This document shows, piece by piece, positions 7,135-36,885 of a stretch of 47,659 nucleotides of DNA (its first letter is position 1; each line of letters begins with the position of its first letter). The notes beneath the pieces were generated by a model that was given only the letters and a program-made list of their open reading frames with translations, made no database searches and was not told the origin of the DNA. A program made the translations under genes and the position numbers. This stretch comes from Jaapia argillacea MUCL 33604 (Eukaryota; Basidiomycota; Agaricomycetes; Jaapiales; Jaapiaceae), in assembly GCA_000697665.1 (NCBI GenBank), contig KL197745.1:174665-222323 (forward strand), written 5' to 3'.

Positions 7135-8220
7135 CTTGATGGGTTCAAAGAGCCGGTAAAGCGAGAGATGGGTGGATGATTTGATAGAGAAGCGATGTTC
7201 GTCCTGAGGGATGCTCTATCCACCCGCAAAGCCCGTCCGTTTTATACACCCGCCCCCTCCCATCCATTTCGAGCGAAATCTGTCGGTGAAGCAATCAACG
7301 AGTGGCTCACACCAGCAAAATAGCCTTAATAGTGAGCAATCGCAAGTGGCTTTAGCATCGTGACCGCTCTAGGAGAGCAATTCGCGATGGCCAGAGCGAA
7401 AATGACTTTTTGAGCGAGGGCTTGAGCGTTTTGACCGGCTTGAGGGGGCAATCCGGCTTGTGGCTCTGGTGAGATTGCTGGGTTTGGAAGGTGTCGTGGG
7501 GTGCTTGGGACGAGACTGAGTTTGCTTTAGCCTTTGAGGAGGGATTTATGATGGCGAGGTTGACAAGTTGCCTGAGATGGGAATTTTTGGAAGGAGAAAA
7601 ATGATGGTTGCAAAAGAGAGACGTCGGGCCCGTGCTTTGGTAACACCATAGGTCTTGGAGGAAAGGGAACAGCCAGAAATTGGAACAATTACTGAGATCG
7701 GCAGGTGGCCAAAGCACATAGTCTGGGACCCAGGTCCTGGTGGATAATAAAGGCACGGGAGTCTAGAGACCATGGTGGTCCTACAAAGCTCTTGAGTGCT
7801 GACAGTCAAGTCCTCGGCTCGAGCAATCGAGAGAGACGGGGCAGATAGTCCAAGAACTCGAATCGACCGTCCGCTGTTGCAAGGAACGGTGACAAGAAAA
7901 TCGCCATAGATCATCGGATGAGAAGCAGCAGTAAAAACGCGCCCACGAGGCGCACGTTCACGCTAACTGACCTTCTCATCGTCAACGTCGATCTAACAGA
8001 AAAGCGTCCGTCACGACAAGGAAAACGAGGGAAAACGTAAGGCAAGATGATAGATAGAGTGCCCGATCCCGATGAGCCCCAAGCGGGATGCCCTGTTGTT
8101 TCTAGCCGCGTCCCTGGATGAGTTCTCTTGAGTTCTCCGCCCCGAGGACTTGCTGCCGTCAACGTCGTTGATTTTGATGTCGAGGACGAACACAACAAGC
8201 GCCCTCGCCAAATCCGGACG
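7135..8220 (-). promoter_or_regulatory. long upstream region of C2H2 copy 1, conserved with copy 2
   Basis: Read on the minus strand this aligns by eye with the DNA upstream of the second C2H2 gene (about 30598-31933). The TATA box TATAAA is at 7246-7241, about 110 bases before the ATG. Just upstream are two blocks identical in both copies: 24 bases at 7259-7282 and GAGCCACTCGTTGATTGCT at 7290-7308. The octamer GCTAAAGC occurs at 7349-7356 and 7524-7531 and recurs three times in the other copy. Weaker matches extend to about 8220. Short open frames exist but are not kept open between copies, so I read this as regulatory DNA or long 5' leader rather than a gene. The 300 bases from 8221 to 8529 should hold the promoter of the RING gene. 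Confidence 0.7.
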
Positions 8221-8529
8221 TCGATCCCGCTCCCGGGCTCGGCCATACAGATTTGTCAGTCACCGACTCCTGCAACTTCTCCACGTCCTCGTGTATCCTC
8301 TAGCTTTTCCTCCATCTCTCTAACTATTTTCATGAACAATCGTTCCTACAAAGGACTTTAGGACTGTACAATTTCAGCTTATCGTCTAGACTCGGTTCAG
8401 TTTCAAGCCACGGAGTCTGCGTTCATAGCAATATCGCTTGGGAAACTAGGCTCATCAACATTGTTTGCTGTTTGCTTTCATCTTCTTAATCTGCGCAGGT
8501 TCTGACGATTTAGTGGCTGTTTGATACGG

Positions 8530-13683: not shown

Positions 13684-16335
13684 CCAGTCAAAGGTAAGTA
13701 TGAGCAGGAATTGAAGGAATACAGCAAAAGATTAGTCGTAAAGGCTGCCACAGAGCATTTAGTTTGCACACGCCGGTAAATGAAGAGAAAGAATGTGGGG
13801 GTAAACAACCAGGAAACACGAACTTGCTTTGTGCATCGAGCGAAGCGCAACCAGTTATCCGGGAGAAGTCGACCAGGCCTCGACAAAGGAATCACCACCG
13901 ACCGTCGCGAGTGGATTCTTTTGAGCTTAACGGCAGCCAGCGAACAGTTTCTGGGAAACCATATCGGATACCATCACCCCTTCGCTTAAATCACTTTACC
14001 GTTATTGTGGTCGTTGGGCGACCAAATTACCTGCGTATCCCCGAGCGACGTGACGCCAAAGTCTAGGTGTCGTTGCCATTAGAAGGTCCCCCACTCCGAG
14101 ATATCTCAAGGCGCTAAGCAACGGTTCGGACAGCTGTGGCGTATATCGCTAAATAGAGCTTCGCGTGGTAGCAACGAGATGTCACTCGACAATCAGGGGG
14201 CGCAACTGCCATGCGACGCCATCTAATTCCAACTCCGCTCTCCCAGCGCAGGCAGATATGTCTACTTTGGTAACACTCCTGTTGGGGGAGAACTGGACAA
14301 AAAAAAACCTGGACGTTCCATCAACTTTATTCGAGCTCAAAAAAGGATCGCACAGTCCCCTTGAAACGGAACGCATATCCGGGGCTTCAAGACCATCCGC
14401 GCGCCAGAATCCTGAACCCTCGATCTAGATTTCTGCGATCAATTTCTTCTTAACTTCTTGAGTTTTGACAGCGAAGCCAAGATTTAAATGGCCGATATGG
14501 TCAGACAGCATCGACAGGAACAATTGTCGGAAGCCTCGCCGATCCATCTCATCCAGTGAGAACTCTCGCTCAATTACTTTGCACAATGAAGCTTTAATGA
14601 ACCACAATTAACCCACCGCAGCTCAAGTAGGTTGCTCGGGAACGCACGACCTCTCGAGGGCAACGAACACACGTCTTGCCACCCAGATGACGTCGGCATC
14701 ATCAACCGTTGTCGAGGGACAGCATACGAACAGCAAAATTACGGTATCGTTGTAACTGATGGTGGATCCCACCGGGCACAATCCGAGGGAAATATCGGGG
14801 GCCGCCACCGCATCCTTACACTTCCGGGGGTGTGCATAGCCATCGAGTCCAATCATCGTGCCCCGGAACGATTTGGGTCCTCCCATGCGCAATTGCGTCC
14901 AAAGGGATGGCCGATCGGACGCCACACCATATGAATGAAGTGACACGACGTGAACCATAAATGAGATTGCGAAAGATAGGGAAAATCCGAGTAGCCTTGT
15001 GACTACTCTTGGTCGGCAATGAAAACTGGGGGGCACGCAAGATGATGGTCACCTAGCGTATCGTCAATGCGACCGGACGGAACCGTGACGTAGGGTACTG
15101 CGTCGTCCAATACCTCGAGGCAATATATTATGCAGTGGTGGATGTTGGAGGGGTCGTGCAGCGGATGATGATGCGGGAGCCAATGTCATGGTTCTGGGTA
15201 CAACGGGATCGGGGGAAGTTCCGGGGATAGTTAGTCGTGACGTTCGTAGGTGTTACAGATTGATTCGGTGACGGAATATCAAGGCACTGGGATCCATACG
15301 AGAAGGGTTGAGAGTACTAGGTTGGCTGCACAGTCGCACAAGGAAAACAACTTGGTTGGCAAAGAAGCGTCCTAACGTGAGGGTGAGCACTACTGCGGGA
15401 AAAGTAACTCCAGAAATGGGTGATGCTTCACGCGAGAACAGCGGAGATGATCATGCTTTCTCAGAAGGTTTGAACCCTCACTGCATTCTGTTAGCTTCCA
15501 AAACGCATCTCACGAGGTGGGAGGATGACATCAAAAGCCCATACACAGCTTGCACGGAAATGCAAATTCCAAGATGTTAGCGGCAGGTGGCGATTGGGGA
15601 CGTGGTCGACCGAGCTCCGGGCGAAAGTAAAGAAGAAGCCAGAGACAATAAGGCGGTAAAGAACTCACGGCTAGCCCACGATCGGTACGCATCATAATCC
15701 CGGAGACTTCTTAGGTACCTTTCTGGGGAGGGACAGAAGCCAGAAACCAAGTAGCTCCGTGTGTGCCTCCAACGATGTTGGTTGCTAAAGCAGTTACTCA
15801 CTCTCAATCAATTCCATGGTTGCGGATATAGACTAGGAGATTGTTGTCAACCAAGAGACGCCTTCAGGGCGGTGTTCCGGGATACCCGATAGATGCGCAG
15901 AGGAAGATATCGGAAAACAAACCAAAGAACCTGAACTGGCGTTTAGGCGCGTTTACTCCGCTGAAACGCGAGTCCTTGATTGGTTGACTGAGCCCCTTCG
16001 TCGGGAGCATGAGTACACCGGCGCCAATGTATGTTGAAACTTGAAAATCACTGCAGGGTTGGTGAACAAGAGAAGTCAATCCGAGCAAATTTGACAGAGC
16101 AGGATAACGGGTAGGACAGGAGCCGTCGGACTTCTCTCCCATCCCTGCCATCCCTAGAAAATCCTCGAGAAAGGGTAGAGACATGGACAAACATCGAGAA
16201 TCAGAAAGCAGCCGCCGACCAGGGACAGAAGAACGCGAAGTTGTTTGGTTGATCTAAAGTTGGCAAATGCCGTGTGACTTTGGGGTGACAACCGGTCACG
16301 GACTCTTTGCCGACCTTGACATCTATGATCTGAAG
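13684..16335. other. 2.65-kb divergent gap without a recognisable gene
   Basis: Lies between the homeodomain gene (reading left) and the bromodomain gene (reading right). Open frames here are short (137 codons at most), show no domain, and lack convincing exon chains. I saw no tRNA-like fold, transposase motif or tandem repeat. An in-frame ATG at 16267 could extend the bromodomain protein by 23 residues. A long shared promoter or a non-coding transcript remains possible. Confidence 0.45.
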
Positions 16336-19610: not shown

Positions 19611-21224
19611 CTACACTGTAGCTACCATCAGGTTCGTATCTCGACCGCTTATGAATACAGTAACCTCTGAAGGAGAACCCCCAGGACCGTATGGGAAGAG
19701 TCGATCGAGTATACTCTGCCACTCCTGCCCACGACTGAACTCGACAGCTGTTTCTTGCACCATCTGGCGAAAGGCGTTAGAGTCGAGTGTCTTCCGCTCG
19801 AAGCCCCTATCAAGAATTCTACCGCCCCCCATCGCAAGCTCGCCAAGGGATAAGGACGACAATGCCTGACAATGCACGGCAAATAACAACCAGTGTAGAA
19901 AGGAGAAGCGGATTCGAGGGAAAGTGAGCGCGAGAGTGTGGACATTTGGCCAGGCCGCAAACATCCTGGAAATTTGCTCGTTAGTGAAAACTGCGTCTGG
20001 TGACTCCTTTTGGCACTCCAGGCGGAATTCGAGTCTGCACAAGTTCCGAAGGAGGAGGAGGGGTTCGATGAGTGACTCGGCGAGCAGCTTCGGATCCACA
20101 ATCGTCCCCTCCAGATCACATTCCGCGATGACATCGAGGATCTGGAGGGAAGCGGCGAACTTTGGCAGAGCCGCTACGAAGGGCAACAGCCCTCTCCAAT
20201 CCCCACTGGTAGCTTCGATCCTACATTCTCGAAAAGAGGGACTAGATATCTTCTGGAGTACACCAGCGACTCCTTCACCGTTCCCACAGAAGATGAAGAG
20301 GTATCGAAGGGAAGGGAATCCGATAGGGATTTCGGCTGGGTTGTACCCATAGATGTCGACATAGCATAAGGCCAGAAACTCTAGAGTCTCCAGGGAAGCG
20401 ATAGCGATCAATGTGGTCGAATTCACGGCGAGGGTTGACCCGCGGTCTACTTGGAGAGACAAAGAGTGCAGATGCCTGTAATTCCCAAGGACGAGAAAGC
20501 GGCGTCTCTCATGGATTCGCCGAGGGCGAGTGTCTCAAGGGAAGGACATTTTGAGGGTAGAGCATCTAGAAATGTCTGGAGAATTTCGTCTTCCCGTGGA
20601 AGTTGGAGACTAAAAGGTGCGTGAGTGCTGAGGTCGATCTCACGAAGGGAACTTGTGATGAAGGGGAGGGTCTCCAAAACAAATTCGCCTTCGATACACA
20701 TAACCGGATGGCCAATGGCATGCATTTCGTGGCTCCATTCCAAGGAACGGAGTGCAGGGAGTAACGGGCCTGCCCTATATTTGGGAATTTCCTTGAAGAT
20801 GCTGCAGTCGACGGAACCGTCGTGGGCATAATTTAAGCGTCGTACACGGTGTGCATAGAAGTCGAATCGAGTCCAATCTTCATCTACGATTGGTCGTGAA
20901 ATGTCCCAAACATAGAAAGGATTCTCGAACATATGTCAAAGAAACAGAACGATTAATAATCGTACTCACGTATGATCACACTACCCATTTTTGCTCTCTT
21001 TCAATTCCTCGCTTTCTCAGCGCAGGGATCAGATCGAGGAGGCAGTCCATATCGAGGATCTCCTCCCAGAGGATATCGAAAGCTGGTTCGGACACGGCGA
21101 GGCATGTACGACCAAACGCTGCGAGGTCACGCCAGCATCCACCAGCCTTCAAAAGACAGATTTCGGAACATATTTCGCTAATAAACAGAGTTCGCGAGGA
21201 TATGTCCATAACTGAGCGGTCCAT
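19611..21224 (-). pseudogene. broken F-box/LRR-like gene (tandem copy A)
   Basis: A decayed copy of the intact gene at 21400-22987. Exon 1 starts at 21224 (MDRSVMDISSRTLF) and matches its neighbour closely, but a CGA codon of the intact copy is TGA here (20978-20976), two codons before the shared splice donor. In the second exon, around 20466-20490, one base is missing relative to the intact copy, shifting the frame into a TAG at 20449-20447. The remaining C-terminal part (20462-19611) then continues in another frame with clear similarity (IPIGFPSLRYLFIF, DVIAECDLEGTIVDPK, ILDRLF). A GTAGTG donor upstream of the TGA could rescue the first lesion but not the second. Two independent lesions in otherwise well-preserved sequence suggest recent loss. 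Confidence 0.8.
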
Positions 21225-21399
21225 AAAGTTGGAAAAAAAATTTGAACGCGGTCAAAGGGAGGCAAAAGACAGATACCATGCTAGTAGGACCTGCCGTTTT
21301 TGGTCTTTCGCAAATTCTTTCTTCGTGTATCAACGTGCTTCACCATTTTACTTAAACTCTGGTAAGTGATGCATCCAGTATGACTTTGCCACATCCCTA

Positions 21400-22987
21400 T
21401 TAGTCGTGACGGCGAATTAATACAGTAAACAGTGCTGGAGAAACCCCTTTGGTGAAGAGTCGATCTAGGATACCCTCGAACACCTGCCCATAGTTTAACT
21501 GGGCTGCAGTTGCTTGAATGAGCTGGCGCAAGGTACCAGAGGTAAATACCATCCGCTGGAAGCGTCCCTCCAGAGTTCGATTGCCTTCCATCGCGATTTC
21601 GCCAAGAAACAAGGATGACAACACCTCACAGCGCCGGGCAAATAACAACCAGTGCAGGAGGGAGAACCGGATTCGAGGAAAAGTGAGGTCGAGGGTATGG
21701 GCATCTGGCCAAGCCGTAGACATCCTGAAAATCTGCTCGTCGGTGAAAACCGAGGTGGGGAACTCCCCTTCTTCACTTTCCAGATTCCACACAAGGGTGT
21801 TCAAGTTCCGAAGGAGTAGCGGATCGATGAGTGACTCGGCAAGCTCCTTCGGGTCGACTATCGTCGCCTCCAGATCACATTTCGCCATGACGTCGAGGGT
21901 CTGGAACGAAGAGGCGAACTTCGGCAGCGCTGCTACGAACAGTAACAGTCCTCTACATTCGTCGCTCATAGCTTCAACCCTAAGTTCTCGAAAAGAGGGA
22001 CTGGATATCTTCTCGAGCACACCGACGACACCTTCACCAGTACCACCGAAAATGGAGAGGGAGCGAAGGGAAGGGAAGCCAATAGGTATTGAGCCTGGGT
22101 CGAATTCACTGATGTGGACATGCCATAACGACAGAGACTCTAGGGTCTCCAGCGAGGAGACCGCTATTAATGTGGTCGAATCCACGGCGGTGCCTGAACG
22201 GCGATCTACTTTAAGAGACAAAGTTTTCAGGTTCCTGAAACTGCCCAACGATGACAGGGGAGCCTCTGTCATGGATCCGAAGAGGGAGAGTGTCTCGAGG
22301 GAGGGACACTTTGAGGGCAAAGCATCGAGAAATGCTTGGAGAACTTCGTCTTCTCGTTGAAATTGAATTGTGTAATAGGCGTGGGTGCTGAGTTGAATTT
22401 CACGAAGTGAGCTTGTGATGAAGGGAAGGGTCTCCGAAACAAATTCGCCTCCGATGAACTGGTGCGGATGATCAATGCCACGCCCTATGTGGCTCCATTT
22501 CAAGGAACGGAGCGCAGGGAGCAACGGGCCTGCCCTATATTTGAGAAGTTCCTTGAAGACGCTGCAGTCGACGGAGCCGTTGTGGGGATAATTTAGGTGT
22601 CGTACGCGGCGTGCATAGAAGTCGAATCGAGTCCAATCTTCATCTACGATGGGCCGTGAAATATCCTGAACATAGAAAGGATTCTCCGACATATGTCAAA
22701 CGAACAGAACGATTGACAATCGCACTCACGTATGATCGCACTGCAAAGATTTCCTCTCTTGCAATAAATCGCCTTCTCAGTGCAGGGATCAAATCGAGGA
22801 GGCAGTCCATATCGAGGATCTCCAGCCAGAGGATGTCGAAAGCTGGTTCGGACACTGCGAGGCATGTCCGACCAAACGCTGCTAGGTCGCGCCAACACCC
22901 ACCAGCCTTCAAAAGAAGACAGATTTCGGAACATATTTCGCTAATAAACAGTGCTCGCGAGCAGACACCCATAACTGAGGGATCCAT
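21400..22987 (-). CDS. F-box/LRR-like protein (tandem copy B, intact)
   Basis: Two exons (22987-22730 and 22683-21400) with a 46-nt intron give 513 aa. The N-terminal exon is an F-box-like segment (FISEICSEICLLLKAGG, CWRDLAAFGRTCLAV, EPAFDILW) and the second exon carries leucine-rich repeat-like sequence (SLETLSLFGSM, FRNLKTLSLKV, SLETLESLSLWHV, FPSLRSLSIFGG). This is the layout of the large F-box families of mushroom-forming fungi, which are thought to be substrate adaptors of SCF ubiquitin ligases. The conserved DISRPIVDEDWTRFDFYA at the start of exon 2 is the usual linker in that family. The target is unknown. The gene lies head-to-tail behind its broken copy and divergent to the ankyrin gene. 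Confidence 0.8.
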
Positions 22988-23252
22988 GGAGTTGTAAAGA
23001 AAAGTTGAACGAGGCCAGAGGGAGAGACCGTTGGACCTACCATTTTTGGTTTTTGGCAAATTCTTTCTTCGTGGGTTCTGTTCTCCCAACATTACACATG
23101 CGTACACATCATCAAGTTCCAAACTTACATCTGCCTCCCTCTGGATGAGAGCTTTGGCAGCCAGTTTCAGAGTTCTCACATCGAGGGCGTATCGTAACGG
23201 AGGAATCCCAGTCAGACTACCCACCCGATATCTTGGAGGCAGGCAAATCAGT
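22988..23252. promoter_or_regulatory. compact divergent promoter, F-box and ankyrin genes
   Basis: Only 265 bases separate the start codons of the minus-strand F-box gene and the plus-strand ankyrin gene, so both promoters must lie here or overlap the first exons. No clear TATA box was seen. Confidence 0.4.
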
Positions 23253-23937: not shown

Positions 23938-26900
23938 TCATCTTCCAACGCCCATCTCCCGTCCAATCTCCTTCAAACAATCCTTCGCCAATGACCTAGC
24001 ATCAAGCTCTCTCACCTCTTCTACATCTTCATCGCCACTCGAACGACCCGACCTATCCTTTTGCTTGATAGCTACCCAAGCCTTGGGCACTGGACGCGGG
24101 GCAGCAGCAATCTCACAAAGAACGTCGTAGAAATGGAATAGGTGTGCTTTGGGTGAACGTCTGACAGCATCTGCAATGAGGGCTGATGGTGGTAGGGAAG
24201 AATCGATAGCTACAACCAGTACGCAGTTAGAGAGTGGGATCAAACGCCAATCAAGAACAGAGAACTCACGAGACTGTTCAACACAGAAATTCGATGGGGA
24301 ATCCGACAATGCTGCCCACAGCGAACCCGGCCACAATGTCAACTCGTGGAGTTTCCTCAAAATGTACAACAGCTCTTCTTCTCTCGTTCTGCGGGCATCA
24401 CCTCAGCGAAACGTCAGGACACAAATCATGAACGACTGACCTCGGGAACGGCATCCCACCTCGGAGACCTTCATCGGCCACATAACTCAGAAGCGACATC
24501 CGACACCTACTCAAAAGCGAAGAAAGACTTAGAGCCGCTACCCTCCTGCGTGAGGCTTCACCATCTGAGAATTCAGAACGTCGGTCCTGTCAGACGTGGG
24601 CAGTTAATAGAACCAAGGAAATAAACGAACCTTTGGCAGTATCCGAGCAGATCAGGAAGAGAAGATCAAGACACCAATAAGAAAACCTCTCTCGTGGGAC
24701 AGTACTACTTTGCTCCGTCGTGCCCAGCGCATAATTTCTATCCTCATCCAAAACACCATTACCCTGCACCGACTTCTTTCCTTTGGCTTGTTTCGGGGCA
24801 ACTTTAACGTCGCCAGTACTATCGGCGCCACTACCGCCCGAGAAACCGATCGGGAGACGATACTCTACTATCTTGCTCCCTTGTGCAACCACTTTGGCCA
24901 ACTGAATGACCAAGTAGTCAGGTACGCGAGGATCTCCAAGGTGTGGGATGACGTCGATTTCGAGTGATGCAACAAGGGAAAGGTCGAAGTTCTCTTCAGC
25001 TTCTTGAGCCTCGAGAGATAGTGACTCAATGGAGGAGCTAGAAAAGATTGTGGGGGTTCAACGGATCAGATGGGAGGCTATCGAAGAGATGAGGGTAGCG
25101 TACCAATCAGCCAAGATACCTCCCCGAAAGACGTCAAGGACATGTCGCCAAATACCTTCGACTCTTTCATCCGGAATATCTTTCAGATGATGGCGTTCAA
25201 TAAGGGCATCAAAGGGAGGAACTTCCACCTACTGTTCTTGAAACTCTTGATCTGCTCGCCGCAACCCTTTACGATCTTGAGGAATGAGGTGGTGGCAGTC
25301 TTCCATAGTGGTGGATCTTTCCCAAACTTCGAAGGCGCAGGACACTCATACTTGAGCTTGATCGGTATTGAGTATCCCTGATAACAAGGTCTTTGTTGAG
25401 GTGGATAAGAGAGATAACGACCATATGAATTCTTACAGAGATGACTACTTCCAAAGTTCCATCAGCGTAGATCTCCTGATTATCTTGGAATTTCGTGTAA
25501 AGATCGACAAGCATAGGCATACACTTCTTGGCGAGTGCAATATACGTGATTCGTTTCTGAATTTGTGAACTCGTCGACCGTTTGATGGAATCGGATACGA
25601 GCGAAGAGCTGGAAGGAACCATGGGCACTGGAGCTTGGACGTCGAAGGCAGCGACAAACGGGAGAGTGACGTATTCGGAGAGATCCCGAAGGACGAGGGA
25701 AGGGACACCAGATCCTGATAACGAGATGGTGGAGACAGTTTCGATGACGACGGCCTGTGTAACGAGGTGTGAAAACTGGCAACAATCTTATATTGGAGAT
25801 ACACTTACCTGAACTGGTGTCAGCCCGTCGATATCTGGTCTATAGTCGGGCGAGTTTTGGTATGTGAGGACGCCTGGATAACATCAGGAAAGGAAGCGTA
25901 AATACAAGAAAAGTGTTCACCTTTCAAGATCGCCATTAGACGTCCCAGACGTTCGAGTGGCCATTCTTGGCCTTCGAGGCTCAGTCTAACAGTCCTTGTA
26001 CTTCTGATAACATCCACGAAAGCCACAAGGCTTTCCTGAGTGAAAGGTTTCAGACCACTCTGCGCGTAATGTGGTCCTCCTCTCTTCAACACTGCACCCC
26101 CAATCTCATCGCACGCTTGCCAAACTCTCTCCCACGACTCAAGCACTCGTTCCTTCTGCTCTGGTACAACCCCAGCGGACGCGGCAATAGCCTTTTCCAA
26201 ACAGCGTAGAGCTGGCGCGTTCGTGGTCCGGCTATCGAATAAAACGGAATCTTGGATGTGCATGACGAAAACGTCCCAGGCCTTCGAAAACGAATCCAGA
26301 TATATGATCTTCAACGCGAGGAAATCATGGAAGATGTTCCCAATGGATTGTAGAGCAAGGACTTTCGACTCGTCCCATTCTTGATCAGAAGGCGGTGACA
26401 TTTCTGTCGTTCCTCCAAGGGATGGAGAACCCAGATTTCGGCGCATGGCGGCTGTGATGGAATCTAGCAAAGGAAAGGTGACTTTCCAAATACATTCGTC
26501 CCAAGTCTCGAGACTCAACGTGGCGCCGTAGAGTTGGATAGATCGGAAAAGCGTCTGGATGGCTCCCACACGCACCTCCGGCCGAGCGTCGGTACACAAA
26601 CCCAAAACTTCGAGTAGGAGGGACATCCAAAGCGCACTATATTCCGGCTCCTTCTCGCTATCCTTCCTTTTCGACTGGATGGAGTCCGATACACCCCAAA
26701 GTAAACTTTCAGCAGCAGTCAGAGCGATATTGGTATCAGCCTGCCGTCCGAACTGGCCCAAAGTCGTGATACAGAGACGCAAATGCTCAGGAGAGAGCAA
26801 AGATAACATCTCGCACACCAAAGTCAAGGACTGGAAAGCCACCTTGATATTGGCCGTGTAGTTCTTCTCTGTAGTATATCCCAAAGGAGGAGGTTTAGGT

Positions 26901-29900
26901 CGGGTCGTCGTCAAAGAAGCCGAACTATTCGCGGGCGACGAAGGGAAAGCAGGCTTGCAGACGCTTCCCAACATTTGGAAAATAGTCTCCCATCCAACGA
27001 CCAACGTATGACCAGAAGCCAACAAGATCTGATGGAGAGTCTCAAGACCCATCCTCTTGATCTCCGAATTGATATTGGATCCAGGGATACCAACAGCATG
27101 ATCGGACATGACTTGTTGAGCCAATACATCCAACACACGACGTTGAACCTTCCCTTGTAACTCTCCCGGAGAAGACAAGTTCCGAGGGATGACGATCAGG
27201 ATATCATCCAACGTCCGAGCAGCTTGAATTCGGATGGATTGAGGGGCGAGGGGTAGGAGGATAACTGATAGGAGGTGGACGGTGATCGTGTCCCAAGCCA
27301 CATCGGGCGAACGATAAACGAGACGATGGATATTCGATAGGGCGACACCTCCAAGCTTGTTGATGCCAAAATCACCAGATCTCTACAAACAAAAAGGCCG
27401 GAGTATCAGCAACCTACCACATACACAAACAACAACCAAAAAAAAACACCTACCAAAGTCCGACTAGGAGGCAAATGAATCCCACTAACCCTCCTCCTAT
27501 GAGCAGCGTCCACAGGAGCCAACAACGAACCCCCAGGACTACTAACATCCTCACTAGACTCTTTCGCATCTCCTCCTCCAACCACACTCGGTACCTGAGT
27601 CTGCATCCCTACCATCTCTCCACTAAGTTTACAAAGCGCCTCAACGAAATTCTTGAAAGCTCCATCATCCAGATTCTTCGACGCGTCAAACAACCTCTGG
27701 ATCGCACTCAACACACTCTCCGCGTCCAAATCCGACAATAACGGGTGCCTCGGCGCAGTTTGCTGCAGCTGCTGAGGACCACCGGAAGCACTGGGTGCAG
27801 GTAACCCAGTAGAAACCGACCTCAATCCAGGCCCAACACTCCCACCCCTCCCAACCTTAGTCCCCTTAAACGTCAACACATAATCCGCATTCTGCAACGC
27901 TTCCAAAACCCCAAACCACCCCTCCCCAAGACTGCCCGCCAAAAACAACGCACTCGAAACCAACACTTTCAAACACGCCAAATTCCTCTCCGATAACCCA
28001 GGTGGTTGAACCGGTCCGCTCAATCCCAAGTTCTCCGAGAAGGCTGTAGTGGCTGTGCGTGGTGTCGACGGTTCCATGTATGATTGGTCCAAACTTGACA
28101 CTACACGTGAAGGGATGGCGAATTTTGATAGGGAGGTTACGAATGCGTCTCGGGGGGTGGTAAGACCTAACATCCCAGAAACGTTTGTCATCGCTTGATA
28201 ACTAGCCAATACGTCCACGAATAACTCGTCTGAGAGGTTGGTGGAGATTATGAACGATAATGCAGCTAGTAAGGCTGGCCAACCGTCTTCGACCATCGCA
28301 TAAACGGTTTTGAGTTGTTTCGTTATAGGTTCGTCTGAGGGTAGAGTTGATATTTCTAGAGAGGGGGGTGCGCGAACTGCTGCGTCTCCTGCTGCTCTAG
28401 GTCTTTGAACCATGATGGAGTTATAAACGGGACCGGCGAAGGAAGCGAAACCTTCGCAGATGGATGCTATGCATTGCATACCCAAGAGATAGATGTATGA
28501 TTCGGGTATGGGAGGCGCGTCTGCCTTGTCGAGCTGATCGATACTGTCAAACGCAAAAAGCATCAACTCCAACCCCATCACAACAAGAGTGCATAATGGG
28601 AGATAACTGACCACTGCAACTTCATAGCCGACCTCCCCAAACTCAACCCCACTTCCGACCCCATCATACCCACAACCCCCGAAACAGCAGCATTAGCCAC
28701 AATCCCCGCCATCCCCACCACCCCTCCCCCAACACTCTCAAACCCACTCGTACTAGTCGCTTCACTCATCTGCGCCCCCACCACTCCCACTCCACCCATC
28801 TGAGCAGACGATCCCAAGAGGTGTGGTTTTTCTGTTAGGAGACGTTTGAGGGATGTTATTAGGGAGGAGAAGATTGGGGAGGAGGGGTGGGATGTGTCGT
28901 AGAGGGTGTGGATGGAACGCATTAGGTCTGCGTCGTTACATAACCTGTTGTCAACACCAAATAAAAGAACGCGTATTGTTGCGTCAGTGGGATGGATGGA
29001 TGGATGGATGGATGGAGTGGGAAGGGGGGTGGATACGTACCCTCTCATAATCTCCATAGCTAGAACCCTCATCCATTGAGGTCTCGGTGTAACGTGGTCA
29101 CCACTATGCCCGTCACTCTCGCCTCCGATTATTTTGATTAACAACATCAAGAAAACCTCTGCTTCCGTCCCCAATTCCGCCAAGAACTGTTTCACTAGTA
29201 AGAACACTACTCGGGTGGAGCGTAGTGTGAGGGGGAAGACTGGATGTTCGGAGAGAGATTTGAGGAGGAGTGGACAGAGGTGGTGGCGGAGTAAAAGGAG
29301 GAGTTCTGATCTCTTTTTGATCGAGGTCGTAATATCGCATGAGCTAAGGGAGAGAAAGAGGAGAAGGAAGGACGAACCTTTCTAAACAACTCATGATAAT
29401 TCGTCATCACACTCTCAATCAACTCCAACGCAAAAGTCTTATGCAACCAATCCAACTTCAAGAACCCCGGGTTCTCACCATTAGCCAACAAACACAAATC
29501 TTCAAAAACAGCGAAAGCATCGCATGCTGAAGGTCCCAATAATTTTTGTGTGCCGTCTGGGAGGGTGGTGGGTGTTAATTGATTTGGTTGGGGTTCGTTG
29601 GCTTGTCGGTCTTCGTCTACTACTTTGTCTACTACGAACATGACTAGTTGGCGGAGTGTTGCTGCTGCTGTTGAAGATACCACCGCGATCCTCGATTCTT
29701 GTAATTTGAAGCAGAGGAGTAAGGCCTACACACCACCACCACACAATCAATCAACATTCCTCTTCCCCCAAGATCAAGAAAAGGAACAGACGTACATCAC
29801 CCAACAACTCCCCATGTATCGCCGGAAAGTTCGTTATGAGCGAAAGCAATGTTTGTAGGATACGTAATTGGATATCGACGCCTTGACTCATACAATCGCC

Positions 29901-30421
29901 CATCGTAGTAACGATAAGTGGTACAGCTGACATTGGGACGGCTTTGAGAGAGATGAGGCGGGTTAAGGAGCCTAGGGATATAGCGACTACTTTGGCGTTC
30001 TTGGTTGCGCATCCCATGAATACGGGTCGGAGGAGGTCGTCTGATTGAGGTCCATCTAACCCCGGGGTTTTAAGATACGAGGTGGGTGGTGAGGGGAGGG
30101 GGGAGGGAGGGGCGTACCTGCGGAGAGGCTGAGAGTGGCTTGCTCGGGAGAAGCTCGAAGGATGGCCAATGACTTTTCAGCTGCCTTTACTCATCCCAAC
30201 CCAACACACATAAAGATTAGTTCAATACCACCTATCCAGGAAAGAATAGGTAGGAATCGACAAACACCTCGCGGACTTCTGGATGTTTCCTTCTAGTCTC
30301 GCTGGCTAGGGACTTGAGAAGTGGATCAAATCAGGTGGTTAGAGTCAGATTCGAGACTTCACTAAGGGGAGTAAGATGAGCTTACTTGTAGCTCTGTTAC
30401 CAGAAATGCGAGTGAACTCAT
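23938..30421 (-). CDS. MON2: MON2-family Golgi/endosome trafficking protein
   Basis: Seventeen exons add up to 5,436 coding bases and 1,811 aa, the size expected for Mon2, a large Arf-GEF-related scaffold without a Sec7 domain that acts at the trans-Golgi/endosome with Dopey and flippase partners. All 16 introns (46-96 nt) keep phase. Exons: 30421-30386, 30312-30268, 30184-30118, 30055-29796, 29725-29378, 29312-29041, 28944-28615, 28543-27454, 27382-25921, 25873-25809, 25754-25437, 25377-25233, 25179-25104, 25037-24631, 24564-24441, 24388-24270, 24209-23938. The start MSSLAFLVTELQ, the DCB-like SLASETRRKHPEVRE, the HUS-like FALELIESVMTNYHELF and the C-terminal IPIKLKYECPAPSKFGKDPP are recognisable landmarks of the family. 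Two introns use GTTCGT donors. The 3' end lies about 100 bases from the ankyrin gene's stop. Confidence 0.9.
28990..29016. repeat. (GGAT)n microsatellite in a MON2 intron
   Basis: Six perfect GGAT units plus GGA lie inside the 96-nt MON2 intron at 28945-29040, close to its donor. It is probably length-variable and without coding effect. Confidence 0.9.
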
Positions 30422-31933
30422 TGCGTTAACCGCTTTGTTGAAGTTGAATCTTCTGCTGAGGCAATTGGATGATTATTATACACGGCCAGGTTTAGTTGGA
30501 CAGCAGGTTGAAATGGAAGCAAAGAGATTAGCGGGTTGACATTGTTCCTGTCGCTGGCTGAGGTGTTCGCAGTTAGGCGCAGGCGTGGCACGTGGGCCGC
30601 AGTCCGTATTTGGTAACCGGCGCTTGGCGCAGATCGATCACGACGGCGATGACGACGACTACGAATGCAACAACGGCGGTCATGGACATGCTCATCATCC
30701 TCTTTGTCTCGAAAGGTTGGGTGAACTATCGAGTTGGAACGCCCCTGTCGAAGCACCGACACTTATACAAGTACTAGTCCCCCTCCTTCCATCACTTCGT
30801 CGGCGTGGCTGGAGCTCATGCATTTTACAAATCTCTGCCTCGAAAAGAGGGAAGACTAACCAACCTATCCACGCACCTCGCTCTGCTGCTATCATCGCCG
30901 CTTTTTCACCACCGTTTTCTGCACCATCGCAGGCGACATCAACGCACCAACCTAACTTTCATCTCATCCCCTCCTCTCCTGCTGGTCTACTGGAATGTCC
31001 ACAACTAACCTACCCGTCGCACGAACCCTCCCTCTATAATCCACTCTTCTATTGTCTACCTCTTTCTGGATCCCTTCAATTCGCTTTGACCTCATCCCAG
31101 CAATTGTTCGAAACTACCAATATCGTCTCTCTGCAAGAGCATACAGTCACTCCCAGCACCCGGGGTTTCCACCTTCCCTCACTAGGCTTTTGGGCTTGGG
31201 TACTCGGTTGTCGTCACTCAAGAGTTCAGCTCTCCCGGATTCTGGCGGTCCATCGATACCTGTCCTGCTATTGTCCACTCGGACCTGAATCGCAGCTTTC
31301 ATGCTTTGACCACTTACCAATCCCAGCAATTGTTCCAAAAACCTCACTGCTTCCTCACTCCATGACCTTCCGGAGTAACCAAAGCGCAAGCCCGAACATC
31401 TCCTTACCAACGACAACTCTCCAACCTTTCATCACCTCCAGGCTAAAGCACACACACGACTCTGCCCCAAGCGTCCCACGACCTCTTCCAAACCAAGCAC
31501 GTCTCCACTTTCAACACGGATCTAAAATTCCAAGCTCCATTCGACAATTCCCATCCAAAGCAACTCTCCAACCCGTCCATCACGATTTCTCTCCTTTCAG
31601 GCTAAAGCAACCACGACCGCCCTATGACCCACTCCCAAACCAAGCAAACCCATACCTCCAACGCTTGGATCAAATATCCAAGCTTCCTCCCATACCAACC
31701 ACATCCGCACTGACCCCCGCCCTCATCGAAGCTAAAGCCACCTCGATTGCTTACCATGTAAGGCTATTCTACACTCTGAGCCACTCGTTGATTGCTCTAC
31801 CAACAGATTTCGCTCGAAATGGATGGGCGGAGGGCGCAGGTATATAAATGGAGGGGTTTGGAGGTGGGGAGAGAGCATTCCTCAGACGACCTTCACTTGC
31901 CCTTTACGCCGTTCTTACCTTTGACCCCTCGAG
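30422..31933 (+). promoter_or_regulatory. long upstream region of C2H2 copy 2, conserved with copy 1
   Basis: From about 30598 to the ATG at 31934 this matches the region upstream of the first C2H2 gene. TATATAAA is at 31841-31848, 93 bases before the ATG. Identical blocks lie at 31778-31796 (GAGCCACTCGTTGATTGCT) and 31804-31827 (24 bases). GCTAAAGC occurs at 31442, 31601 and 31731. A second conserved cluster around 31258-31340 shares CAGCAATTGTTC-type sequence, a motif also present near 31098. A long open frame (30585-31847) with a GTG start covers the region, but the matching frame is broken in the other copy, so I do not call it a gene. The 177 bases next to MON2 must hold the MON2 promoter. 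Confidence 0.7.
31414..31707 (+). repeat. 147-bp tandem duplication in the C2H2 copy 2 promoter
   Basis: Two diverged units start with CAACTCTCCAACC at 31414 and 31561. Each contains GCTAAAGC (31442, 31601) and CCAAACCAAGCA and ends near TCCAAGCT. The first C2H2 gene's promoter appears to carry only one unit (near 7460-7580), so the duplication probably arose in this copy. Confidence 0.65.
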
Positions 31934-33075
31934 ATGCCTTGCGAACGTACACCAACCACCACCGAACCCACCCCCACTCCCGTACGTACTCCCCTCTCCC
32001 CCCCATCGAATTCTCTTGGATCCAGCTGATTTGAAGACAGGAAAGAAATCTGTACCTGCCGATTGTGAAGTATGTGGAAAGACGATCAGGCGAGCGGCGG
32101 ATATGCCTAGGCATATGAAGATACACGCTACGAACCAAGATGAGCTGTACGTCCCCCTCCTCCTCCCCTTCCCCTTCCCTCTCGACACCTAACACTGAAC
32201 TAACCAACCAAACCTCCGATAGGAAACTCTATTGCCCAGAGTGTAACAAAGGCTTCCTACAAAAATCCAATCTGAACACTCACATAGACGCGAAGCAGTA
32301 CGTTCCCCCTCCCCTCCTTCCCAATAAGTAACCCCCGGATTAACGCCCCACCCCCATTGTGTGTAGTTCGAAAATCCGATCAAAGAAATGCCCTGAATCA
32401 GGATGTCCTTTCGCCACTAGTGATCCTGGGTCTTTGACGAGGCATAGGAAGAGAATGCATGGATACGAACCTAAAGCCCGACGCAAGGCCACCAACTCGT
32501 CTTCCACATCTACGCTTATCACTACTCGCCCACCTCCATCTTCGACGTCCTCCCCGGCTGAGTCGAATTCCGATATGGAGAGTAGCGAGGAGGAATTACG
32601 GTACCCGTCCCCCTCACCCGAACATCAGGCTCTGTTCCTCTCACACGACTACATCCATTCCCGATTCACCATCCCCACCAACCAACCAGTCCAACACCAC
32701 CACTCTTCGTCTGATTCGCCAGTCCCGAGGCATCTTGAGGTTGCGGGTGGTACGGCTTTTGATGGGAGGGTGTTTCAGGGCATGCAGGGATTCGGCGGTT
32801 CGCGAGGTTATGAAGGGATTCGATCGTCCAGGTTCTCTTATCCCCCCGTCGACACTCCAACCCACTTGATTTACTCTCCCAACTACCCGACACACCAGGT
32901 ATACAGACATGTCGATGGGAACGCGACGAACTTCGAGTTACCACTACCTATGAGTCCAACCTCATCCATACACTCTCCTACTTCTTCAACCTCGTCGCGT
33001 TCTTCCCGATCGTCGGTGGATGGGTATCCGTCTGGGCAAGCAATCACACCCCGCACTTTGAATTGGGCTTTGTGA
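31934..33075 (+). CDS. three-finger C2H2 zinc finger protein, copy 2
   Basis: Probable nuclear transcription factor of 313 aa in four exons (31934-31981, 32037-32146, 32223-32297, 32367-33075). Exon 1 encodes MPCERTPTTTEPTPTP. Finger 1 is CEVCGKTIRRAADMPRHMKIH, finger 2 LYCPECNKGFLQKSNLNTHI with its last His made across the exon 3/4 junction, and finger 3 KKCPESGCPFATSDPGSLTRH followed by RKRMH, with four residues between its cysteines. Downstream are an acidic patch (SDMESSEEE) and the block VPRHLEVAGGTAFDGRVFQG shared with copy 1 at 5782-7134, followed by a Ser-rich end. It is shorter than copy 1 mainly in the disordered tail. The copies are inverted relative to each other. Function and targets are unknown. 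Confidence 0.86.
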
Positions 33076-36566: not shown

Positions 36567-36885
36567 CCTCGGATTGATGTAAATTTCGTACCATAGGAAG
36601 AGTGTAATGGACCACATGAAAGATTATAGAATCGAGAACAATCAGCGGCCATCATCGCTAATCTTCTCATCTCACAGTTCACCCATGATAGAGAATGATT
36701 CAACACGAGGAGGAGTCCCCACAGCAGAACCTCGGATTGATATAAACCGCGTACAGTAGGAAGAGTGTAATGGACCGCATGAAAGATTCCATAATGGAGA
36801 AAAATCAGCGACGGCCATCATTGCTAAATCTTCTCGTCTCAAAGTTAACCCATCGTAGAGAATCATTCAGCACGAGGAGTCCCCA
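36567..36885. repeat. tandem duplication, unit about 163 bp
   Basis: Two diverged copies start with CCTCGGATTGAT at 36567 and 36730 and share GGAAGAGTGTAATGGACC, ATGAAAGATT, AATCAGCG and GAGAATSATTCA in the same order, ending near GAGTCCCCA. No flanking target duplication or coding content was seen. Confidence 0.75.

Follow-up and report, generated by a model that had tools for sequence, protein, structure and literature searches.

What keeps the DNA in front of two diverged zinc-finger genes alike, and how much of it is kept? The question was raised by the window, the whole stretch of 47,659 nucleotides of the Jaapia argillacea genome that was analysed (C37:174665-222323, in a genome of 43.7 Mb and 95 contigs). 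Its short introns and C2H2 genes, together with a divergent KN-homeobox pair on another contig, are suggestive of a basidiomycete. An earlier note had described a match of 1.1-1.3 kb upstream of two C2H2 genes, here called A and B, and had read it as a sign of cis-regulatory control.

Two zinc-finger genes and the reach of their upstream likeness

Genes A and B, modelled by eye from splice signals (Table 1), have four exons apiece, with short introns whose places match or nearly match. Both proteins exceed the PF00096 cut-off of 25.2 bits (48.3 bits for A and 44.3 for B), and their finger domains above this curated cut-off identify them as C2H2 zinc-finger transcription factors with predicted DNA binding; a search of solved structures returned general C2H2 relatives only (95 sequences, the best being zinc finger protein 568). 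The two proteins are 58% identical overall (176/302), with 77% in the fingers (92/119) and 46% in the tail (84/183), and the corresponding coding nucleotide identities are 75% for the finger part (267/357) and 58% for the tail (316/549). The genes are copies in opposite orientation, separated by 24.8 kb of the same contig, and in a DNA self-comparison of the window (E up to 1e-3) their neighbourhoods were alike only in these genes and in the upstream patches. A RING-finger gene sits opposite A. On the side of B, the closest frame to match Pfam is Mon2-like (25820-27109); a frame at 27406-28578 has no such match.

Likeness was tested against 200 dinucleotide shuffles under a stricter and a looser scoring. 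Segments A 7135-7370, 7371-7620 and 7621-7760 scored above every shuffle under both. Farther from the genes, the observed score was reached by 75/200 (stricter) and 11/200 (looser) shuffles for A 7761-8140, by 57/200 and 1/200 for A 8141-8529, by 62/200 and 0/200 for B 30334-31260, and by 17/200 and 4/200 for B 30900-31260. Conservation on a kilobase scale was rejected on this basis: the stricter test is null beyond A 7760 and B 31260, with a faint residue under the looser scoring. The match itself is real, but it is clear only as far as A 7749 and B 31269, where the farthest patch pair ends (A 7749-7624 with B 31269-31395, 71%), so that its safe extent is about 0.62-0.67 kb upstream of the ATG, and any signal beyond this is faint at most. 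The patch at B 31535-31610 is out of order relative to the others because of an internal repeat in B.

The strongest stretch in a BLAST comparison was A 7190-7360 (171-172 bp, 81% identity), compared with 58% in the coding tails, which bears out the claim that non-coding sequence is kept better than the tails. The core alone (A 7267-7352, B 31735-31819) agrees at 65/86 positions in a plain alignment (76%), below the 81% of the surrounding 171 bp; the elements and their distances are thus kept better than the spacers. The identical blocks near the TATA boxes that had been given as 24 and 19 bases in fact measure 25 bases (7259-7283 and 31803-31827) and 20 bases (7290-7309 and 31777-31796). The octamer GCTAAAGC was found at 7349, 7524, 31442, 31601 and 31731, as noted before, and once more at 15784; these six matches in the window compare with 0.81 expected, and none of 100 shuffles had six.

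Several other repeats were observed in and around the window. A block of about 75 bp, outside the module described below, is 89% identical between window positions 8141-8214 and C37:160383-160454, the two places shown by a genome search in which the best candidates were scored; it stands some 0.3 kb ahead of the RING gene and, at the other place, shortly before a G-alpha-like gene (by eye). A tandem duplication spans 19643-21327 and 21408-23073 (78% over 1.7 kb), with one frame in the second copy giving a weak leucine-rich-repeat match, and a tandem repeat of about 155 bp (83%) lies at 36567-36721 and 36730-36885. The hexamer YAAAGC is dense upstream of A (6 in 626 bp, 7135-7760) and B (6 in 674 bp, 31260-31933) relative to the window (1.28 per kb), the hexamer having been chosen post hoc and the two genes not being independent cases; in 650 bp upstream of each of the two further paralogs introduced below, it occurs 0 times at C3 and 4 times at C7.

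Table 1. Features of genes A and B and of their upstream DNA, with the corresponding copies at the C3 paralog (window positions)
Feature	Position	Strand	Basis or remark
Gene A, three-finger C2H2 protein, 392 aa	5782..7134, ATG 7134	-	model by eye from splice signals
Gene A exons	7134-7087, 7035-6929, 6870-6796, 6730-5782	-	splice signals, by eye
A TATA box TATAAAAC	7239..7246	-	start 112 bp before ATG
A palindrome TTTCGCTCGAAA	7267..7278	-	11 bp past proximal copy
A proximal copy GAGCCACTCGTTGATTGCT	7290..7308	-	
A GGCTATT	7319..7325	-	between the two copies
A distal copy AAGCCACTTGCGATTGCT	7335..7352	-	hand-set pattern
A upstream patches matching B	7476..7749	-	7624-7749, 71%; 7522-7596, 72%; 7476-7533, 82%
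B upstream patches matching A	31269..31499	+	31269-31395 and 31440-31499
B patch around a GCTAAAGC	31535..31610	+	aligns to A 7522-7596
B distal copy AAGCCACCTCGATTGCT	31735..31751	+	hand-set pattern
B GGCTATT	31762..31768	+	between the copies
B proximal copy GAGCCACTCGTTGATTGCT	31778..31796	+	19/19 same as A
B palindrome TTTCGCTCGAAA	31808..31819	+	11 bp past proximal copy
B TATA box TATATAAA	31841..31848	+	start 93 bp before ATG
Gene B, three-finger C2H2 paralog, 313 aa	31934..33075, ATG 31934	+	model by eye from splice signals
Gene B exons	31934-31985, 32041-32146, 32223-32297, 32367-33075	+	splice signals, by eye
C3 distal copy GAGCCACTCCTCGATTGCC and proximal copy GAGCCACTCCTTGATTGCT			C3 promoter
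C3 extra inverted copy GAGCCACTCCTGGATTGCT			farther upstream than the other C3 copies

A compact array beside the TATA box in three paralogs

A protein search of the genome, in which the best candidates were scored, identified two additional paralogs, on contigs C3 and C7 and named here after them; a second genome search with the C3 protein as query returned the same four genes and none besides at E up to 0.01. The upstream DNA of C3 contains the conserved block, which matches B at 77% over 100 bp and A at 84% over 49 bp. Farther upstream of C3 (-1200 to -400), shuffle tests gave 70/200 and 8/200 against B and 35/200 and 100/200 against A, and the B patches 31269-31395 and 31440-31499 had no C3 match at E up to 1. 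Upstream of C7, with the start codon picked by eye, six tests gave nothing beyond the shuffle level (lowest 36/200), and the module present in A, B and C3 is absent from this fourth paralog.

What the three promoters share is a module of about 86 bp: the element RAGCCACTCsTnGATTGCY in two copies separated by 25-26 bp and, after a further 11 bp, the palindrome TTTCGCTCGAAA, followed by the TATA box. The copies were defined by a hand-set pattern, [AG]AGCCAC-N2..5-GATTGC[CT], and each can be read by eye as an imperfect dyad, AGCnA...TnGCT. The spacing was seen directly to be nearly fixed: in A, B and C3, respectively, the gap from distal to proximal copy is 26, 26 and 25 bp, that from proximal copy to TTTCGCTCGAAA is 11 bp in all, and that from TTTCGCTCGAAA to TATA is 20, 21 and 30 bp, with the TATA box starting 112, 93 and 120 bp before the ATG. 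Each promoter has GGCTATT between its distal and proximal copies, the proximal copy is identical in A and B and matches at 18/19 positions in C3, and TTTCGCTCGAAA is the same in all three. Start-to-start distances of successive elements (44/43/44, 30/30/30 and 32/33/42 bp in A/B/C3) would put the element starts near whole helix turns, a suggestion drawn from three promoters only.

At the match stringency applied, the array is nearly absent elsewhere in the genome. In 149,634 bases scanned, the hand-set pattern had 7 matches, all 7 in the A, B and C3 promoters. The strict split pattern GCCACTN{2,4}GATTGCT, which does not capture the B and C3 distal copies, occurs at 6 places in 43.7 Mb (reversed control, 2), and 5 of these are in the same promoters; the sixth (C3:1175108) falls in an open frame read as an MCM1-type MADS-box gene and was taken as chance. 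Allowing up to 3 mismatches, GAGCCACTCGTTGATTGCT has 13 places against 4 for the reversed control, 5 of them in these promoters. All four places with 2 mismatches or fewer belong to A, B and C3, and all 8 outside places, including sites on C9, C18 and C21, have 3. A fuzzy scan that returned the best matches recovered the proximal copies and the inverted C3 copy only, and no distal copies. The palindrome is less telling: when up to 3 mismatches are allowed, its long string ACAGATTTCGCTCGAAATGG is found at 6 places, 3 of them here, against 3 for the control, and is not distinctive; TTTCGNNCGAAA by itself shows no enrichment (28 places against 25 in the control); and TTTCGCTCGAAA stands at 5 of the 28 palindrome places, namely A, B, C3, C4:1662380 and C19:422651. 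The last of these, which has an adjoining TTGATTGCTT, was read as the coding end of an MFS-like transporter and taken as a putative coincidence.

A dispersed repeat, which the earlier note had named as what would overturn its reading, was thus looked for genome-wide, in DNA searches that score the best candidates only, and no multiple copies outside the gene family were found. At the stringency used, the module appears confined to this paralog family in this genome, and looser, degenerate sites may exist elsewhere. The literature searches linked the module to no known site or factor; none of the texts searched contained 15 bases of the 19-mer in either orientation or 14 bases over the palindrome, and among the matches listed, all those to module strings were by the octamer.

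Retention of the module against silent-site divergence

Gene conversion or recent duplication would give likeness without constraint. A and B do lie inverted on one contig at a distance of 24.8 kb, and at fourfold sites of identical residues they agree at 40/96, above the chance level of 0.25-0.26, so that with 42% agreement they fall short of full saturation. The remaining comparisons, A-C3 with 17/63 and B-C3 with 8/54, are at or near chance; all these counts are small. Non-coding identity exceeds silent-site identity in every pair: 81% for A-B, 84% for A-C3 and 77% for B-C3, over the stretches given above. The neighbouring introns have diverged along with most silent sites, the three A-B introns falling within the shuffle range (131, 23 and 18 of 200 under the stricter scoring; 16, 77 and 51 of 200 under the looser); for the 3' flank the stricter score was also within range (49/200), the looser one being reached by 1/200. 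With silent coding sites at or near chance, the module looks as if it has been kept by selection.

The third copy, on C3, is the strongest evidence for the module; it lies beyond the window, to which the earlier note was confined. When module columns were compared with the distal copy omitted, the ends trimmed and the alignment anchored by hand on GGCTATT, A and B agreed in 52/66 columns; C3 concurred in 44 of these 52 and equalled A or B in 7 of the 14 others. Such agreement is expected under constraint, but not if A and B had merely been copied or converted recently. A-B conversion could keep the two promoters alike, yet it does not explain a copy on another contig with the same order, the same spacing and most of the same columns, and we regard conversion or recent duplication as quite unlikely to account for the likeness. 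The idea that the likeness reflects a conserved transcribed leader, as a non-coding RNA or an upstream peptide, is very improbable. Two open reading frames do overlap the region, of 161 aa (31362-31847) and 122 aa (7546-7914), but single-base gaps in the alignments break the frame, and the core lies upstream of TATA boxes at -112, -93 and -120; a scan of the window against Rfam gave 0 families at the gathering score. The long non-coding leader that the earlier note had offered is therefore unlikely, while its proposal of cis-regulatory control is well supported by what the comparisons indicate: a module of near-fixed spacing in three paralogs, beside the TATA box, with silent sites near saturation.

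On sequence grounds, then, the proximal promoter module is real and constrained, and it belongs to a small paralog family in which three genes, not two, carry it. We consider it likely that an ancestral C2H2 promoter module has been kept by selection in A, B and C3 as a platform of fixed grammar for regulators. The ancestral gene would have borne a compact array of two imperfect dyads, a palindrome 11 bp on and a TATA box 20-30 bp after it. Through at least two duplications, A, B and C3 would have retained this array under purifying selection, and meanwhile the silent coding sites, the introns and the more distant upstream DNA would have drifted. Transcription-factor sites usually turn over fast between old duplicates, and the retention of promoter elements between duplicated genes is a known phenomenon. 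The present case is like such retained elements in that non-coding blocks in the proximal promoter outlive silent sites; it differs in being an array of near-fixed spacing in three members, with no comparable match found elsewhere in the genome.

Candidate regulators and what the module may mean

The site next to TATA, the repeated dyads, the near-fixed spacing and the inverted C3 copy together point to protein binding, and the module is probably the binding platform of a putative regulator. A dimeric or cooperating regulator may occupy the two dyads and a second regulator the palindrome; sitting on the same face of the helix next to TATA, such proteins, whatever their identity, would keep the paralogs co-regulated.

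One possibility extends the autoregulation raised by the earlier note: the zinc-finger proteins may bind the module themselves, in auto- and cross-regulation that would tie A, B and C3 into a closed loop. Transcription factors commonly self-regulate, and since genes of this C2H2 family are the only ones at which the module was found, self-binding through the fingers is an attractive idea. Zinc fingers contact DNA through positions -1, 3 and 6. By an eye reading of the alignment, the residues there are the same in fingers 1 and 2 of all four proteins and in finger 3 of A, B and C3, and this holds despite finger regions that are just 80, 56 and 39% identical to A. Against it, C7 has similar contacts yet lacks the module. 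A crude recognition code gives the site GNCNAAGCG; with gaps of 0 to 3 bases permitted between fingers 2 and 1, none of the four promoters contains it in full. Matches at 6 of 7 positions in A, B and C3 numbered 9, 9, 7 and 4 for the four gaps, compared with shuffle means of 5.6, 5.3, 5.2 and 5.2 (counts reached by 15, 13, 49 and 159 of 200 shuffles), and none of the ungapped ones falls inside the dyad-palindrome core. Auto- and cross-regulation of this kind is conceivable, but we hold it only tentatively. A more specific form, in which the three paralogs, as dimers or with a private partner, bind an array existing only in their own promoters and so close a circuit, seems doubtful.

Another candidate is the mating-type homeodomain heterodimer, of which the module would be a direct target in the manner of Ustilago maydis rbf1 under bE/bW. 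The smut b-site is GATG-N9-ACA, and the proximal copies of A and B contain TGATTG-N8-ACA, that is, GATT-N9-ACA, with the same spacing. This likeness was spotted after the fact and is a partial match in only 2 of the 7 module copies; by an eye reading, the distal and inverted copies lack ACA and the C3 proximal copy has ACG. A divergent KN-homeobox pair was observed on C2 (C2:1172500-1179500), perhaps a homeodomain mating-type locus, and one TGATTG-N8-ACA lies in the estimated 200 bp or so that separate the two start codons; this string has 419 occurrences in the genome, against 150 for a reversed control whose different word make-up makes it a poor yardstick. The available part of the U. maydis report describes binding and induction of the C2H2 gene rbf1 by bE/bW. 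The rbf1 promoter resembles ours in belonging to a C2H2 regulator gene and in carrying several similar sites; its required site lies at -1377, in contrast to a module beside the TATA box (PMC2916880). In Cryptococcus, the accessible portion of a further report gives CLP1, CPR2 and VAD1 as direct targets of the Sxi complex and ZNF2, the RBF1 homolog, as not a direct one (PMC13059729). Control by the mating-type heterodimer is accordingly unlikely, and a platform of fixed grammar for regulators is the reading that we prefer. The paralogous stress transcription factors of Candida glabrata, as described in the part of that report at hand, are comparable only in that paralogous factors are treated as a network (PMC4860858).

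With nearly exact spacing kept in three paralogs despite silent sites at or near saturation, and with no comparable match found elsewhere in the genome, the array of about 86 bp would give a clean natural example of rigid promoter grammar. The module also offers a short DNA bait for finding its regulator. If the closed circuit were true, the family would regulate itself via a fixed-grammar switch that has outlived its own silent coding sites.
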